From: Daphnia pulex
Taxonomy: Eukaryota; Arthropoda; Branchiopoda; Diplostraca; Daphniidae
Assembly (NCBI RefSeq): GCF_021134715.1
Contig: NC_060017.1
Span: forward strand, 7,378,001-7,442,000
Direction of reading: 5' to 3'
DNA length: 64,000 nucleotides
Below the pieces are notes generated by a model that had not been told where the DNA came from, did not search any database, and saw only the letters and a program-made list of their open reading frames with translations. Of the stretch, positions 7,938 to 46,765 are shown piece by piece (within the stretch, counting starts at the first letter, position 1; each line of letters opens with the position of its first letter). The translations under genes were made by a program, and so were the position numbers.

Positions 7938-8559
7938 GATCAAGTAGTTTGAATAGACTTGGTTGGAATGATAGACAGTGATTGAATGGCAACTTGGAAC
8001 ATTATACATGGCGTTTTTATACTTTAAAATTTCAAAGTTTATTTTTATTTGTATACTGCGAATAATTAAGAATTTGAGAAAATATATGGCGAATGAGAAA
8101 ATTCCACTGAATTTCTTTCGGCATTTGTACAATTTTCTCAGAGGGGAAGAGAAGAAACATTTTCTCGGAGGGGTTGAGTAAATTAGCAGACAGCTGACCG
8201 GTTGGAGGCTGAAACCCGTAGCTCGGCGGACGCTCGCTATATCAATCGCGTTGTCTGTTGGGACCGCTCCTGGACGATTCTGGGGAAATACGCAAATAAT
8301 ATTAGTAAATTATAAGAAAAATGTACAAAAGTACGAAAAGATTTCACAAAAAAACATGCAAACGAAAACTTACTTGATCCTTTTAGATAGGCTAGTCATT
8401 CAAATAATGACGTGGGCATGGACGTCTCAGTGGGTCCGGGATGGCAATCTGCAGGAGCATAAAGCAATCAAGAAAAGTCCTGAAAAGGGTGCACATTAAA
8501 TATCTTACGCGGCTTCTAAGTTCTCTTTGGAGACGTAACAGCTTTTCTTCTTCGCGTCT

Positions 8560-8661
8560 TTAGAGGCGCCTCTGTTCTTCTTCTTCTTCTTGGCGTCTTT
8601 GGAGGCGCCAAGAATTGATTTTTATGAGACGTTGCAGAAATTCAACCTGCAAATCCGACAT
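8560..8661 (-). pseudogene. Truncated copy of the glycanase start
   Basis: ATG at 8661 begins [12 protein letters not shown], against [12 protein letters not shown] in the real gene at 5282. After about 15 matching codons it runs into low-complexity sequence (RRQEEEEEQRR) and a stop at 8560. The upstream flank also matches the glycanase promoter, with an insertion of about 40 bp. It is a duplicated 5' fragment, not a functional enzyme. Confidence 0.7.
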
Positions 8662-8750
8662 TCGGATTTTTTTACTAGAATAGTAGAATGCTACGTGGAA
8701 AACAGAAACAGAAGGGTAGAAAGCAGACGATAAGCTGCCAATATTTTTGT
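8618..8750 (-). repeat. Copy B of the glycanase 5' segment
   Basis: Shares GACGTTG(C/T)AGAAATTCAACC, the T-run plus ACTAGAAT, and GATAAGCTGCCAATATTTT with copy A at 5246-5368, in the same orientation. Extra bases separate the blocks, so it is an older or rearranged copy. Confidence 0.7.
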
Positions 8751-9563
8751 TGGTTCGAAACGATGTCGTGGCGCGACGGTCGAAACTGTCTATAGCCGAC
8801 GACATCTTTCGTGGCAATAAAGAGAAAATTGTCTATTGCCACGAAACGCCTATACTTCCTCTCTAATCTCTCATTTCGTGGCAATAACACGAATTTTGTG
8901 TTCTACTAAGAGCGCATGGCGCTATGATTAACTTGCGCTCAATTTAGCGCAATTCATTTCATCTCTTATAATTTTTAAAACGCACAAGCGCTAAAATAAA
9001 TAGGTATTTAACGCTATACCTATCGCGCATCGCACCGAATTCAATTATAACTCTGCGCATGCTAACGAAAAATTTACCTGTTAAACTTTATTTGTTATTT
9101 TTTTTTGTCAAATTCCGATTTTCTTCCGTTCATTTATATTCATGGCATTAAGTTTTTGTTTTTATTTTGCTAATCGTGTTTTACAATGAAACATGAAATC
9201 GTGCTTGCTTTTTAATTAAGAAACCAATTGGTTTGTGTGAAAAATAAGTTAGTTTTGTCGATCGCAGCAGTCAAACCAGAGACCAAAATAAATATGTTTA
9301 AATAAATTTTAATTTTAAAAAAATACGCTTCTCTTTGAATTAAGAAAATTGGCAAATGGTGGTTAGTGGCTACTGGCTAGCAACGAGTGAGACTCGAGAG
9401 TCGTAATAATTCGGCTGCCCTGCTGCCCAAAATCAGTTGACATTTGACAATTGACATGTGCATGTCAGGGCGTGTGGGTGACAGCCTTCCTTGTTCCGTC
9501 CTTCAATAGTTAATATTTTGTCATCTTAAAGCAACCAGGTACAATTTTTATTCTGATATGTAA
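8751..9563. other. Intergenic, AT-rich with short inverted motifs
   Basis: TTTCGTGGCAATA occurs near 8806 and 8872 in one orientation and near 8838 in the other, so it can fold back either way. The remainder (8900-9560) is AT-rich. I see no ORF, RNA gene or recognisable element. Confidence 0.4.
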
Positions 9564-9631
9564 GTAAATGGGAATTAAATATTAATCTTGTTAGCTTGTA
9601 AATGGGAATTAAGTATTAATCTTGTTCGCTT
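9564..9631 (+). repeat. Two tandem 34 bp units
   Basis: Unit 1 (9564-9597) and unit 2 (9598-9631) both read GTAAATGGGAATTAA(A/G)TATTAATC followed by TTGTT(A/C)GCTT. They differ at two positions, so the duplication is recent. They lie just upstream of the TOPBP1 fragment. Confidence 0.7.
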
Positions 9632-9716
9632 GGTATTCTGCCAACACAAACTTATATATTTTTTTTGTTAGTTTCCAGAGCCTTTTGTAAGATCTTAACT
9701 GCTGATTTGTTTTGAA

Positions 9717-10578
9717 ATGAAAGTTTTAAGCGATTCATCGATTCATGCATCAACGCCTCCTATCCAAAAGCAAAATGTTACCTGTCAGTCAGAAGAGTGT
9801 TTGGATTTAGTTCTTTCATTGAAAGCTGGACGTTTTCTAGAAGGTTTTAAAATTTTCCTTATTGGCTTTGATGGTCCACAGATGGAAAAACTACGGTATG
9901 TCAAGATTGTTCCAGTGTTTTAAAATTTTTATTTATTTTATTTTATCTTGTTTCTTTACAGGCGAGTCCTGAAAAATGCTGGTGTGATCCATCTTAGCAC
10001 AATCAACAACGATGAGTCGATTTCTCATGTCATTGTCGGAAATATCGGAAAAGAAGATGAAAAGCAACTCCAGCAATTAACGAGAAAGCCTCACGTTGTA
10101 ACAGTCGAATCTCGAATGGTTGACACAAAGTCTGCGACTGAATGCCCCAGCTCCCGAAGCCGAGTATCTACATCCATTTTACAAGAACCTCTTCACTCTT
10201 AGCAGACAATTAAGAGCTTCTTAAAGGAAAAAGAGATGGAAGAAGATGTTTCGGTATTGTTGAAATATCCTCCTGCCGATGCCGTATTTTCCTGTGTGAC
10301 TTTTCAACTCGTTGGTCTCATGGACGCGGATTGAATCTCTTGGACGACCGATCTCATTGAAAGTAACGGAGAAGCAGGTGAACCCACTTACTCCAAGGAT
10401 TATACCGCTCCGACATCCCTAACTGTCGTCAAGATCTTTCAACCACCTGGCGATCCTGCAGAAAAACTTTCAGCTCCTATTTCATTTCCGGCAATTGATT
10501 TTGATGGCCCCACGCCTGTTACTGTGGTACAAGTATTTTATTCTTAAATTTGTGCTTAATCATTCAGCTTAACTTCAT
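9717..10578 (+). pseudogene. TOPBP1 (mus101) fragment, degenerate
   Basis: Exon 9717-9895 (LEGFKIFLIGFDGPQMEKLR) splices to an exon from 9962 (RVLKNAGVIHLS, then SISHVIVGNI and KPHVV). This is the order and spacing of a TOPBP1 BRCT repeat, where RPHVV is followed by WLLECF. Here, after VVTVE, a 7 bp tandem duplication (TCGAATC TCGAATG, near 10109) throws the frame. The expected WLTQSLRL...EYLHPFYKNL continues in the next frame and stops in LRAS. Further TOPBP1-like sequence (FSCVTFQLVGL, then LIESNGE) follows with an in-frame TGA near 10331. TOPBP1 is a DNA-replication checkpoint scaffold; this copy cannot encode it. From 10148 on, the fragment is also present inverted. Confidence 0.75.
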
Positions 10579-11116
10579 AATTTTCTTTATCTAGATGGGG
10601 CAACCAAAGATTCCTGCGATTCTCCCTGTCCTGACTGACCCGGTTTCAGAGCTTTTACTGCAGACATCTAATGGTACAAAAACTTTCGGTATACATGAAG
10701 TTAAGCTGAATGATTAAGCACAAATTTAAGAATAAAATACTTGTACAGGCGTGGGGGCATCAAAAGAAATTGACGGAAATGAAGTAGGAGCTGAAAGTTT
10801 TTCTGCAGGATCACCAGGTGGTCGAAAGATCCTGACAACAGTTAGGGGTGTCGGAACGGTAAAATCCTTGGAGTAACTGGGTTCACCTGCTTCTCCGTTA
10901 CTTTCAATGAGATCTGTCGTTCAAGAGATTCAATCCGCGTCCATGAGACCAACGAGTTGAAAAGTCACACAGGAAAATACGGCATCGGCAGGAGGATATT
11001 TCAACAATACCGAAACATCTTCTTCCACCTCTTTTTCCTTTAAGAAGCTCTTAATTGGCTACTAAGAGTGAAGAGGTTCTTGTAAAAGGGATGTAGATAC
11101 TCGGCTTCGGGAGCTG
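10148..11116. repeat. Large inverted repeat of TOPBP1-derived sequence
   Basis: Left arm 10148-10578 and right arm 10695-11116 are near-identical reverse complements, about 430 bp each, around a 116 bp spacer. Arm differences are scattered substitutions plus a ~9 bp indel near 10519. The spacer itself looks like another TOPBP1 exon (GQPKIPAILPVLTDPVSELL). Both arms carry the same in-frame stop, so the stop predates the inversion. A transcript across it would fold into a very long hairpin. Confidence 0.85.
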
Positions 11117-11610
11117 AATAATACGCCAGTAAAGGTATCTATTGCGCCTCACCCAATTACCTCAGGGAGTTGATCCTCGCCATAGACAAGAAGTGTCAGG
11201 GTGCGGAATGTGTTTTGCCAAAATTTCTCCCCCATCTAGACGCCATTCCTTCAACCCACATTTAGTTATTCTGTTGTCGTTATTTGTTTCTTTAGCCGAT
11301 TTATCTCGATATTGTGTCTTAACTTCTTCTTTAACGTCAGAAAGAATGATTGAACTATGTTGCGGGTTTTTATTAGGTTACAAAAGACTTTTAGCGAATG
11401 TTTGTCGAGATAATTTTATGCTGTTTGTTTTTTAAGAAAAGAAAGTGATGTATGCCGTTTGTAATTTTTGTTCGGTTGCGGAGTAGTGATGGAGTACGGT
11501 AGCTTGTGATATTCTTTGCATTTTCAAAGAATGGTTTGTACTAAAGTTGTTAATTCTACGTAGAATATTTATGTGAAGTTTATTTCTTTTACGGTGACAA
11601 AATTGTACGT

Positions 11611-11880
11611 CTATTGGTTATAAATTTTACAAAGATCAGTCAGATCTCGCGAAAATGTGCCTAATAAATAATAATCGCGATATGCATCTTGTTGAATTAA
11701 AAATTGATTTAGTCTGACGCAATTCCTGCAAAAATAATACATCGCCTTCTGTTTCTTTAATTTCAACTGCTTTAAATCGTAACACAATGGCGAAATATTA
11801 CCCTTAAATGAAATAAAATGAATAACTAAGAGTACAGTAAAAAGAAGCCCTCTACGGCTATTGCCCTGTCGGACCGGCAT
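11611..11880 (-). CDS. Unassigned ORF, 89 codons
   Basis: The ATG at 11880 opens a frame of 89 codons with a hydrophobic stretch near the start (LLFTVLLVIHFISF) and a lysine-rich middle. No domain recognised. The only reason to list it is that copy C of the glycanase promoter segment lies about 40 bp upstream in the correct orientation. It could equally be chance. Confidence 0.2.
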   Translation of the reverse strand: MPVRQGNSRRGLLFTVLLVIHFISFKGNISPLCYDLKQLKLKKQKAMYYFCRNCVRLNQFLIQQDAYRDYYLLGTFSRDLTDLCKIYNQ

Positions 11881-11916
11881 GGCAATTAGATTTCACACAT
11901 TTTTATTTTGTTTACT

Positions 11917-12003
11917 CTAGAGTGACGTGGAATATTCAAAAGCAGGCCAATTTTATTGTCATTTTGAATTGGAGTAATAAAAGTGACCGCTAGATGGCGA
12001 AAT
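11917..12003 (-). repeat. Copy C of the glycanase promoter segment
   Basis: Matches copy A (5290-5368) through ACTCTAGAGTGACGTGG, GGCCAATTTTATTGTCATTT and TTGAATTGGAGTAATAAAAG, then GTGACCGCTAGATGGCGA. Only the upstream part is present here, without the glycanase start codon. It ends about 270 bp before the alpha-arrestin start on the other strand. Confidence 0.75.
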
Positions 12004-12276
12004 TCGAGGCGCGTCTTCCGTCAATTCGAAAAAAAACTCTTCATTAGTAGGTAGATTTGAAGCAGGAGGCAGGAGCATACGTCGTCGATAAGATGCTGCG
12101 ATTTACATTAGTTTATATTAAGTCACGTCCCATTCTATAAATAGAATTTTCCCGCCAGCAGCTTGATGGTTGAATGGTTCATTCGCGGTTGTCGTGGCGA
12201 GGCGAGAACACGCGAACGCGCGTCATCGTCGCTACTGGATCGTATCACTGCTCATCATCATACGTAATAATACTTA

Positions 12277-14719
12277 ATGGATAACTTCAGTGTCGAGTTG
12301 GACCAAGCAAAAGGAGTATTCCTTCCTGGACAGAATGTCAGTGGCCTTGTCCAGTTTCAACTCACTGCCCCCGAGAGTTTCAAAGGTATTTTTATCCCCA
12401 TATTGACCCGCAACGATGAATAAAGATTTATTTCTTTTTGACATAGGTCTCACAGTCGAGTGCATTGGTATGTAATTAAAAACTATTAATAAATTGATTG
12501 ACGAGTCATTTTTCGAAATCATATCAGGTAAGAGTCAAGTGCATTGGTCGGAAACGGAAACATCCGGCCGCGAAACGGAAACGGTTCACTACCAAGCCAG
12601 CGAAAACTATTTTTACCACAAAATTCAACTATTCGCAGGTAATAATGAGACCGGATTTTATTTGTTTTTACAGTAAAATTAGAAGCGACATGATAGGGTA
12701 TTGCCTTTCTTAAAAATAGCAACGGGTCGTCCGCTCTGCGGTGTTTGCAATATTTTCCATCACGGAAAATATTGCAAAGATATTTATAGTTATTTGAAAT
12801 CCATCCAACCTCTTGGACATGTATACTGCGTGTTGACATAATTTATCAAACTCAATGTTGGTGTCGGAATCCAATCCTTCAAACGTCGAATTCAGCACTT
12901 GACATTGGCCTTTCTAATTCAAGGGCGCGAATATCCAGAAATTAATTAATCCTCATATGTCACACGCAGGAAGTGACAAAGAGTTGGAGCCAGACTATTA
13001 CCGCTACGCCTTTTCGTTCACGCTTCCACACCAGCTGCCTGCGTCCTTTGAAGGGGCCCACGGTTCCTTGCGCTATTACATCAAAGCGGTTCTGGGTCGG
13101 CGCTGGATGCTTGATGCCGTTTTTAAGCGCGGAATCTCCGTCAACACCATAGTCGACCTCAACCAAAATTTCCAGGCGTCGGTGAGTAGTCGCGGTGGAA
13201 TCGCAGAGCTTATAAAGAGAATTTTATGGTTAGCAGCACGACTGGAGGACAACTCTTTTCACGGACCCTCGAATACTACTATGAATAGAACCTACACTGT
13301 TTCCGTAGGGCTGCTGCTGGCTGGTTGGTATAGGGAAATACGGAGATAACGACGACGTTGCCGTTATCAAAACTTCGTGAGAAAACAACATCGAACGAGT
13401 TCTTCTTCATTTTATGTTTTTTTTATTTTATTGTCGTCTTCGGAACTCTTGTTTTTCCATCACGGCATGTTTGCGTTAACGTGCGGGGAGTTCGCTACCC
13501 AACTATTTCATCTATTCTTTTGGCGTGTGTGTGTGTGTGTGTGGCTACGTGGCAGATTCCAGTGAAGAATGAGGAGACCAAGACTGTTTGTTGTCTATGC
13601 TGTCAGTCGGGACCCATCACGGCGATCGCTTGGCTCCCGAAATCTGGATACGTTCCAGGGGAAACAATTCTCTTTTGCGGGCGAGTAGACAACAAAAGTC
13701 GATCGAGGTTACTGCACACATCGGTCCGGCTGGTCGAGGTATATAACACCCATTTCCACCCAGGCAAACTCACCCGACTCCCGCTTATACGTCTATATTT
13801 GTTGGAAAGAAACCGATTTATCCTAACTAACCCAATATAACCGTGCGAAAACAACATTGTCTCATTAGCGTGCCTTGATTTACCCAACTCGGATTGAAAG
13901 CCTGGATGGGGGGGCGACGCAAAAACTTGGCACGGCTAACTAGAGAGCCATATATATTCTTCAAGATTCTTTTTTTGTACAGTTGTCAACTGCTTTTTTC
14001 ATTTTCTCTTTTGTAGAGGACAATATTTAAAGCCCAAGGTAAACAGAAGGAAGATGAACGAGTCATACGAGAAATCACCCGAAACCAGCAAACAGCGCCG
14101 GAAAGGGAGAACCTAGAACTTTGGAATGATATTCCAATTATTGTGCCGCCGTTGGCGCCATCCGATCTGCATCACTGTTCGATTATTGACCTTCGATATT
14201 TTATCGAGGTGAAACGAATCTTATTTTCCATGACTCATGGTGACATTTAATAATTTTTTTTTTACATTTTATCTTGCTTTCTTTCAGTTTATCGTCAATC
14301 CGGGAACACTATCATTCAATTTCAAGGTCCCAATTGAGATTACGATTGGCACAGTTCCTTTCCGAGATAGTTTCCCCACATTCCAGCCGCAAGCTAGCGC
14401 TCCGCCATTCACAAATGGAATCAACGTAGAAAATAACGTTACGCACCCAATTGGTTTTTTGCCTCCGTTCATGATCAATCAGTATCCAAATCTCCGTAAG
14501 AAATTATGATTTATAGTTTTATAGACGTATTGAAGTAATTGCAATATTTTATTTGTTTTAAAAATCTCAGCTCAAAGCACATACGAATCCGGAGTATTTA
14601 GCGGCAACTTGAGGGAGGAAGGAGACACGGAACATCTTAACATTGGCTTTGACACATTATTTAAACCAACTTACATTAGCTATCCCAGCGTTGACAGTCA
14701 AAATAACCCGTCATCTTAA
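12277..14719 (+). CDS. Alpha-arrestin (arrestin-domain-containing protein)
   Basis: Exons: 12277-12385, 12447-12467 (21 bp), 12528-12638, 12970-13181, 13556-13738, 14017-14208, 14288-14495, 14571-14719 (394 residues). Alpha-arrestins are endosomal adaptors that recruit ubiquitin ligases to membrane receptors. The N-terminal arrestin fold is seen as VFLPGQNVSGLVQFQL, then VHWSETETSGRETE and YRYAFSFTLPHQLPASFEG with YYIKAVLGRRW. The C-terminal fold begins KTVCCLCCQSGPITAIAWLP and includes SGYVPGETILF and the FIVNPGTLSF stretch. The usual PPxY motifs for NEDD4-type ligases are not seen in the tail. The 21 bp second exon is unusual but keeps the reading frame and supplies GLTVECIG. The family is certain; which ARRDC/Vdup1 subgroup it belongs to is not. 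Confidence 0.92.
12744..12778. repeat. Perfect short hairpin in an arrestin intron
   Basis: TTTGCAATATTTTCC and its exact complement are separated by ATCAC, giving a 15 bp stem with a 5 base loop inside intron 3 of the arrestin gene. Confidence 0.8.
13526..13544 (+). repeat. (GT)n microsatellite
   Basis: A run of about nine GT units in intron 4 of the arrestin gene. Similar runs occur in prominin introns near 17800, 21745 and 24192, and in its 3' UTR near 27712. Confidence 0.8.
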
Positions 14720-43726: not shown

Positions 43727-44175
43727 TTGATTCGTTTGCCGCCGTTCCTTAGACTCAATCCACCGGTGAAACTAAGAAGACGTTGCTGAAATTCAAAATT
43801 AATCGATAAATTATATAGATAAATTACAAGTGCATATCTGGGCTCCCTTCTTCAGTGGCCCCGTTTCCCTAAATAACCACTAACCAACGCCCGCCGGTGG
43901 TCACTCACTCGCTGCGACAACCAGAAAGAAGGGAGATGTTTGGTCGCACGGGGACTTGCAAGGCGCATGATTCGATGAAATCTGTTGGAGGGTCATGAGT
44001 CTAAGCCGGAAGTCTACTATGATGCATTGCTCTCTTAAAAGCTGTTCCTAGGCTCTCTTCGCTCTTTTTCCGGTGTCTCTTAACCATGGCCGGGTAATCT
44101 CCCTGGTTCAGTCAATCACTGCAGTGTCTCCCCCCCGCTTATTGGCTGTGTATTGAACCGGGCGGTCAGTTAAAT
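43727..44175 (+). repeat. Duplicated non-coding block, copy 1
   Basis: Begins just after an acceptor-like TTTCATTTCAG. It shares long identities with 45823-46765: TTTGCCGCCGTTCC, AAGTGCATATCT, GGCTCCCTTCTT, AACCACTAACCAACGCCCGC, GGTGGTCACTCAC, GGCGCATGAT, GGGTCATGAGTCTAA, GGTAATCTCCCTGG and TTGAACCGG. There is no shared ORF, so the conservation is not obviously protein-driven. Confidence 0.75.
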
Positions 44176-45822: not shown

Positions 45823-46765
45823 GTGAATCTGTTGCCGCCATTCCATAGACTGACCCATTGGAATGGTGAAACTGGCGAGTAAACGCTGAAATTCAAGAAA
45901 ATTATGTTGATGTAGATAAATTAAAAGTGCATATCTAGGCTCCCTTCTTTTCTGTGGCCCCATTTTCCTAACTAACCACTAACCAACGCCCGCCAGTGGT
46001 CACTCACCCGCTGTGAAACCAGGAGGAGGGGAGGGCTCTGGTCGAACGGGGACTTGGAAGGCGCATGATCCGACGAAAACTTTTAGAGGGTCATGAGTCT
46101 AACCCGGAAGCCTAGTAGTGACTAATCGCTCCCCAGTAAAACTTGCCTCGCACTCTTCTCTCCTCTTCCATTTCCAGGTAATCTCCCTGGATCTACGCCG
46201 ACACTGCATGTGTGAGTTTTAGCAAGCAATCCGCCACCCAATTTGACAAAAAGTGATAGTTTGTTTTCACGGAAATTGCGTCAGGCGGTTAAAAATTGTC
46301 TAGTTCAACAATCTCATGTAGAAATTTGCATCTAGTCTACTGGTGCACTTTGCGATTCTTTAAGCTTGATTGATTTAGGTGATGTGTTAAAATCAATTGT
46401 GGGTAGCTTAAAAATTGAACTAATTCGCTTTTTCAGAATATTTTGAAGATAGATCACAAGAAAGTCTAAAAACAACAAAGTGATCCAAAACCAAAATATT
46501 CAGAAAAAGTTAGTTCAATTGTTTAGCTACCCACAATTGCTTTTAACACATCACCTAAATTAATCAAGCTTAAAGAATCGCAATTTGCACCAGTAGACTA
46601 GATGCAAATTTCTACATGAGATTGTTGAACTAGAAATTTTTTAACCGTCTGACGCAATTTCCGTGAAAACAAACTATCACTTTTTGTCAAATTGGGTGGC
46701 GGATTGCTTGCTAAAAAGCCTCGCACAAAAAAAACTGTCTTGAACCGGACGCTCTGTTTAATGAA
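45823..46765 (+). repeat. Duplicated non-coding block, copy 2 (interrupted)
   Basis: Second copy of the block at 43727-44175, about 2.1 kb downstream and in the same orientation. It also starts after an acceptor-like TCTCCTTTTAG. Near its 3' end it is split by the 500 bp foldback element at 46217-46716. After it the match resumes (TTGAACCGG, then a TTTAATGAATTG tail). Confidence 0.7.
46217..46716. mobile_element. 500 bp foldback element
   Basis: Arms 46217-46455 and 46482-46716 are reverse complements of about 235 bp around a ~26 bp centre. The outer ends are TTTTAGCAAGCAATCC and GGATTGCTTGCTAAAA. It carries no ORF. No clear target-site duplication is visible, but its position within copy 2 of the duplicated block shows it is an insertion. 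Foldback MITE is the best guess. Confidence 0.8.

Follow-up and report, generated by a model that had tools for sequence, protein, structure and literature searches.

Inverted-duplicated pseudogenes give rise to siRNAs in mouse oocytes and in plants, and fold-back inverted duplication is marked by a short single-copy spacer and by the loss of adjoining sequence, both of which are also found at the Daphnia pulex locus presented here. This locus lies in a 64-kb stretch of DNA, the whole of which was analysed and is called the window below. It resembles the mouse and plant systems in being a pseudogene arranged as an inverted repeat and homologous to living paralogs, and it differs from them in being known from DNA alone and in the distance to its nearest relatives, whose identity is 82-90% over the matched blocks of the arms.

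Of the systems described, the Drosophila set of hairpin RNA (hpRNA) loci comes closest, with hp-Nmy, hp58 and hp88 among its members (PMC10317233). These too are long inverted repeats derived from protein-coding genes, which lie far from or near their parent and may use a pre-existing transcription unit. In contrast to that set, the locus in the window formed in a parent copy that had become a pseudogene before, and it shows no excess complementarity to targets; what we know of it comes from its sequence only. Studies of Drosophila describe the origin of hairpin RNA loci as a continuing conundrum, in which promoter acquisition is a possible issue (PMC10317233). Fold-back inverted duplications (PMC3907307, PMC11724301) likewise place an inverted copy beside its source. 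With about 430 nt, the repeat in the window lies in size between the 5-34 nt yeast insertions and the large human events of those sources, and it differs in being an old event, with 4.5% divergence between its arms. In the titles and abstract openings listed for the Daphnia literature on TopBP1, endo-siRNAs and small RNAs, a weak test, neither this TOPBP1-like locus nor Daphnia hairpin RNA loci were found; the small-RNA part includes work on Daphnia magna miRNAs.

A degraded TOPBP1-like gene in the window

Homology of the window copy to a tandem pair of TOPBP1-like genes on contig C11 (copies A and B) runs from about 9053 to 11846, introns and both flanks included. Its features, in window coordinates, are the following:

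9053..9716, + strand: 5' flank and 5' UTR from the TOPBP1-like parent; 89% to both C11 copies (571 and 586 ungapped columns)
9539-9678, + strand: kept intron, 140 nt, GT-AG by its splice-site letters
9717..9895, + strand: broken coding start, in which a deletion has brought roughly the first four codons next to the first half of a BRCT3-like stretch
9896..9961, + strand: kept intron, 66 nt, GT-AG; 95-96% to C11 over 9902/9904-9975
9962..10147, + strand: second half of that BRCT3-like stretch, which neither C11 copy has; includes the frameshift
10148..10578, + strand: left arm, sense to the parent gene, which carries a TGA and two internal deletions and takes in the initial 46 nt of an intron
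10533-10594, + strand: kept intron, GT-AG by its splice-site letters, ending in the spacer
10579..10694, + strand: spacer or hairpin loop, 116 nt, the normal continuation of the left arm; 10433-10693 is 85% to C11
10695..11116, - strand: right arm, an inverted copy of the left arm, found where C11 has about 1.6 kb of coding sequence
11121..11846, + strand: last 47 codons (11122-11262), in open frame, and 3' flank of the parent; 77-92% to C11 in pieces

With gaps counted, the identity of the 5' flank to C11 is 77%. The start of the broken coding region was compared with copy B, to which the stretch 11117-11650 is 86.6% identical over 516 ungapped columns. The BRCT3-like stretch, both exons together, is identical to an exon of the TOPBP1 gene on contig C6 at 54 of 108 aligned positions, gaps counted, and 10009-10086 also matches contig C7 at 86%. 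As Pfam gave no family at E 0.1 for six fragments of the window, the BRCT3 label is based on the alignment to C6 and on the order of domains. Since hits of the structure search are named by protein and not by domain, the domain numbers (BRCT0, 3, 4-5, 6 and 7-8) are in part provisional. There was no known RNA family at the gathering threshold within 8500-12500, no match to the exact 24-nt pattern searched in viral contigs and none to the exact 36-nt pattern searched in prokaryote genome contigs.

The reading frame is disabled by an in-frame TGA at 10332-10334, where both C11 relatives have TGG, by internal deletions and by a frame-shifting near-duplication of about 7 nt at 10105-10118, without which the C6 gene reads through; several stops interrupt the predicted spliced frame. 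TOPBP1-like homology that includes introns and flanks, together with a disabled frame, is what is expected of a duplicated pseudogene. A processed (retro) pseudogene is ruled out by the three GT-AG introns and the homologous 5' flank, and the copy is thus a genomic duplicate. Just past the start codon, beside the deletion of the upstream coding part, there is also a perfect 8-bp tandem duplication (9731-9746).

The initial annotation had described a TOPBP1 fragment, with its frame broken by a 7 bp duplication and an in-frame TGA, turned into an inverted repeat of about 430 bp with a 116 bp spacer. The repeat and its spacer were recovered with coordinates exact to the base and both lesions are present. 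The homology to TOPBP1 also stands, but it extends well past the fragment, over the range given above, and the genes nearest to the copy are those of the C11 pair, not the TOPBP1 gene on C6.

Relatives of the gene copy

The DNA search with 9717-11116 covered the whole genome (133,188,837 bases in 13 contigs), its counts being lower bounds, and gave at least 17 matches from four candidate regions: two at the locus itself, 14 on C11 and a short one on C7. The C11 matches form the tandem pair, at about 1202056-1207257 and 1220411-1224742, with open frames of 431 and 319 residues that match solved TOPBP1 chains in a structure search. Ubiquitin chains listed for residues 49-102 of the 431-residue frame were taken as spurious, since no stretch passed alone. 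It is this truncated pair that is nearest to the window copy, rather than the full-length TOPBP1 gene at C6:4610277-4613763, in which both long frames carry BRCT models and the 781-residue frame matches TOPBP1 chains with E down to 3.2e-46. The BRCT3 stretch retained in the window is missing from copies A and B alike, which indicates that the window copy descends from a fuller ancestor than either. The divergence of the window copy from C11 is of similar magnitude along its length, with 11% in the 5' flank, 13% in the 3' part and 12.5% (right) or 15.5% (left) in the exonic arms, and in one 145-nt coding block the left-arm mismatches are spread 5, 7 and 9 over the codon positions.

The C11 frames share 52% and 48% amino-acid identity with C6, with dN of 0.37-0.41 and dS from 1.6 to saturated, which argues that they have been under selection over the long run. 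Their present functional state is less certain than this past selection: copy A lacks the segment that bears the ATG of copy B, copy B has a stop early in its N-terminal exon, and the N-terminal part thus looks damaged in each of them, with the frames of 319 and 431 residues still open.

In the 3' region of copy B, part of the BRCT exon of this copy recurs in inverted form over 138 nt (C11:1220560-1220697) with 89% identity, and the inverted piece is lacking at that place from copy A and the window copy; this is a second fold-back-like event in the TOPBP1-like family. The 3' part of copy A holds an exact 329-nt tandem duplication (C11:1202813-1203468) that is recent or an assembly effect, the gene copies A and B being 97.7% alike. 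On C7, 2417188-2442022 contains five copies, at a spacing of about 6.09 kb, of a unit in which a TOPBP1-like 3' end (78%) stands beside unrelated open frames, and 2768162-2771073 contains further broken TOPBP1-like fragments, including a piece of the BRCT3-like exon that is absent from C11.

The inverted repeat as a predicted RNA hairpin

The arms of the inverted repeat, 10148-10578 and 10695-11116, are identical in 403 of 422 ungapped columns (95.5%) and differ at the other 19 positions and by one 9-nt indel (9 gap columns); with gaps counted, the joined alignment is 93.5% identical over 431 columns. The 116-nt spacer occupies 10579-10694. The repeat search itself splits the arms into 10148-10519/10745-11116 (372 nt, 95%) and 10527-10578/10695-10746 (52 nt, 100%). 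Folding energy, which together with arm identity had been put forward as a check in the initial annotation, is -752.5 kcal/mol for 10148-11116, whereas 20 shuffles average -249.4 (sd 5.7), so that the repeat is far beyond chance; the value for the minus-strand RNA, computed without shuffles, is -771.0 kcal/mol. RNA from either strand would, according to these folding models, form a very stable hairpin. The number of arm-arm pairs is 356 in the predicted spliced + transcript and 406 in the unspliced one, and the locus thus has a long inverted repeat able to make an extended RNA duplex, as hpRNA and endo-siRNA loci have.

Ten of the differences between arms are transitions, which give three G:U and seven A:C oppositions on the + strand and the reverse on the - strand; among all 19, G:U-compatible differences are 3 on the + strand versus 7 on the - strand. 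When clustering of differences was considered as a sign of gene conversion, the longest identical run between arms was 106 columns (P = 0.07).

The background of inverted repeats was sampled in 173,000 bases from 8 of the 13 contigs (the 64-kb window, five random 10-kb stretches making up 50,000 bases, and the TOPBP1-related loci), which is too small for a genome-wide rate. It held five rows of inverted repeats of at least 60 nt within 5 kb: the TOPBP1-like locus, a palindrome at window positions 46217-46716, two partly overlapping repeats near C7:5365611-5366818 and one of 140 nt in C11. The palindrome is a 500-bp near-palindrome, 89% self-complementary, and a copy of a dispersed fold-back repeat found 93-100% alike in at least 40 places scored out of 180 candidates; near it there is a direct repeat (43813-44022 and 45910-46121, about 213 columns at 85%). 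In the longer of the two C7 repeats, arms of about 500 nt are 89% alike and separated by about 210 nt, and stretches related to it occur on many contigs.

Timing and junctions of the inverted copy

Compared with C11, the left arm has two internal deletions, one that leaves 21 nt (10206-10226) in place of about 184 nt and another that leaves 61 nt (10372-10432) in place of about 466 nt. The right arm carries the same TGA and both deletions with their short fillers, and the gene was thus dead before the fold-back. Over 347 gap-free columns in three blocks, aligned with both C11 copies and leaving out 4 of the 19 arm differences, 36 of the differences from both copies occur in the two arms alike, 9 in the left arm only and 4 in the right arm only, while 2 are unclear; the 9:4 ratio comes from too few changes to be read. 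The large share of arm-shared differences indicates that the arms began to diverge from each other considerably later than the window copy did from C11. From these counts the fold-back would date to roughly the last third of the separate history of the copy, unless gene conversion has homogenised the arms.

The right arm occupies the place of C11 1222634-1221041, and its junctions, read against C11 1222635 and 1221040, have fillers of 1 nt and about 4 nt and minimal microhomology. Replacement of about 1.6 kb with such short-filler junctions fits fold-back or template-switch repair, two routes between which so little microhomology does not distinguish. In our reading, a genomic segment with a TOPBP1-like paralog was copied to the present chromosome, where deletions, a stop codon and a frameshift destroyed the frame of the copy. 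Repair of a break, by a folded-back end or a template switch, then probably made an inverted copy of about 430 nt of the gene and joined this stretch to the 3' end of the gene, which left a long hairpin-forming repeat between the inherited 5' flank and 3' end.

Complementarity to possible targets

Matches to possible targets were counted in 21-mers of each arm and in an exonic set from which the last 49 nt of each arm were cut, the intron part being 46 nt. Exact matches to C11 were found for 22 of 402 right-arm 21-mers (6 of 353 when exonic only) and for 16 of 411 from the left arm (0 of 362). The exact exonic right-arm matches to the pair are 24 nt and 22 nt long, and 150 of the 353 exonic right-arm 21-mers match copy A at up to three mismatches. 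In the aligned exonic blocks, exact 21-nt windows number 5 in the right arm and none in the left, against 11.3 and 5.5 expected from a mismatch shuffle; windows with up to three mismatches number 137 and 135, against 154.1 and 126.9. The matches to C11 are thus no more than divergence alone gives. Moreover, neither the mismatch shuffle nor the arm differences, tests that are weak with so few changes, gave any sign that pairing or target matching has been selected for.

The initial annotation had also suggested that the real TOPBP1 could be silenced from this locus, and this found no support. None of the 402 right-arm or 411 left-arm 21-mers matches the C6 stretch at up to two mismatches, three of the 402 and none of the 411 do so at three, and there is no exact run of at least 15 nt between either arm and that stretch; two control stretches had no 21-mer match at up to three mismatches. 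In blastn against the C6 stretch the left arm gave no match and the right arm a single one of 43 nt at 79%. This match and common ancestry are all that speaks for silencing of full-length TOPBP1 by the hairpin, none of the matches would be usable for it, and the gene was rejected as a target on the 21-mer and exact-run evidence, so that the locus almost certainly does not act on it. If the locus silences anything, the C11 pair would be the only plausible target found.

The hairpin-RNA geometry of the same annotation was borne out by the arm-arm pairing kept in the predicted spliced transcript, with the flanks of the gene inherited and candidate protein machinery encoded in the genome. The latter comprises 35 Piwi-domain and 20 RNase III-domain matches, counted exon by exon and some with internal stops. 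A D. pulex immune-gene survey lists two Argonautes and three Dicers (PMC2685406). An siRNA pathway is plausible in view of both.

Discussion

From its sequence, the locus is probably a neutral fold-back pseudogene, that is, a duplicated TOPBP1-like copy that lost its function and was then folded back. The sequence shows the anatomy of the locus, the loss of its frame, the succession of events in the arms and the capacity to form a hairpin. That it evolves neutrally at present is, like the repair mechanism, something that we infer, and two features count against it: a putative promoter has been inherited and the arms are still 95.5% alike. Fold-back chimeras are a familiar artefact of some library methods, and an assembly or sequencing artefact of this kind has to be considered. 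However, the arms differ at 19 of 422 positions and by the 9-nt indel, the outer junction joins another part of the gene, and states shared with C11 persist in the right arm after their loss from the left (seven left-only changes in the third block, and a 9-nt insert that the right arm does not have), as would be impossible if the right arm were an echo of the left; an artefact is therefore very unlikely. Still less credible is a fold-back transposable element with captured gene sequence. Such an origin could be suspected since the two other long inverted repeats that were followed up proved to be dispersed repeats, but the genome search, with its lower-bound counts, found this inverted repeat at one place and no dispersed copies, and both arms and both flanks are gene-derived.

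A further question is whether the neutral pseudogene also makes small RNAs. Long dsRNA is cut by Dicer, and since the 5' and 3' flanks have been inherited, the hairpin could be transcribed and diced without any selected target. This incidental source of siRNAs, which overlaps the neutral reading, is on the unlikely side; a hairpin RNA from the locus, if made, would be a Dicer substrate and, we think, more likely incidental than selected. It is considerably less probable that an inherited promoter and a stem of 356-406 pairs make a working hpRNA locus whose siRNAs repress the C11 pair. The hairpin is stable on both strands and retained after predicted splicing, the right arm of a + transcript would be antisense to C11 mRNA with the exact exonic matches and the many three-mismatch 21-mers given above, and genes with Piwi and RNase III domains are present. 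However, the well-matched 21-mers do not exceed the mismatch shuffle, G:U-compatible arm differences are fewer on the + strand than on the - strand, and the death of the gene precedes the hairpin. In addition, the presumed targets are truncated and damaged-looking in their N-terminal part, which lowers the odds further. Slightly more improbable again is the full proposal of a young crustacean hpRNA locus, born by fold-back in a dead copy with its own promoter and 3' end and silencing the C11 pair; nothing that we see in the sequence indicates that the hairpin is used.

The locus keeps together a plausible intermediate in the birth of an hpRNA: a living paralog pair, a dead copy with both flanks, and a fold-back. 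If the hpRNA reading were true, it would reveal a route by which such loci are born with a promoter and complementarity to a target already in place, in a checkpoint-control gene family. Even if inert, the locus is an example of how the raw material for hairpin RNA loci arises.
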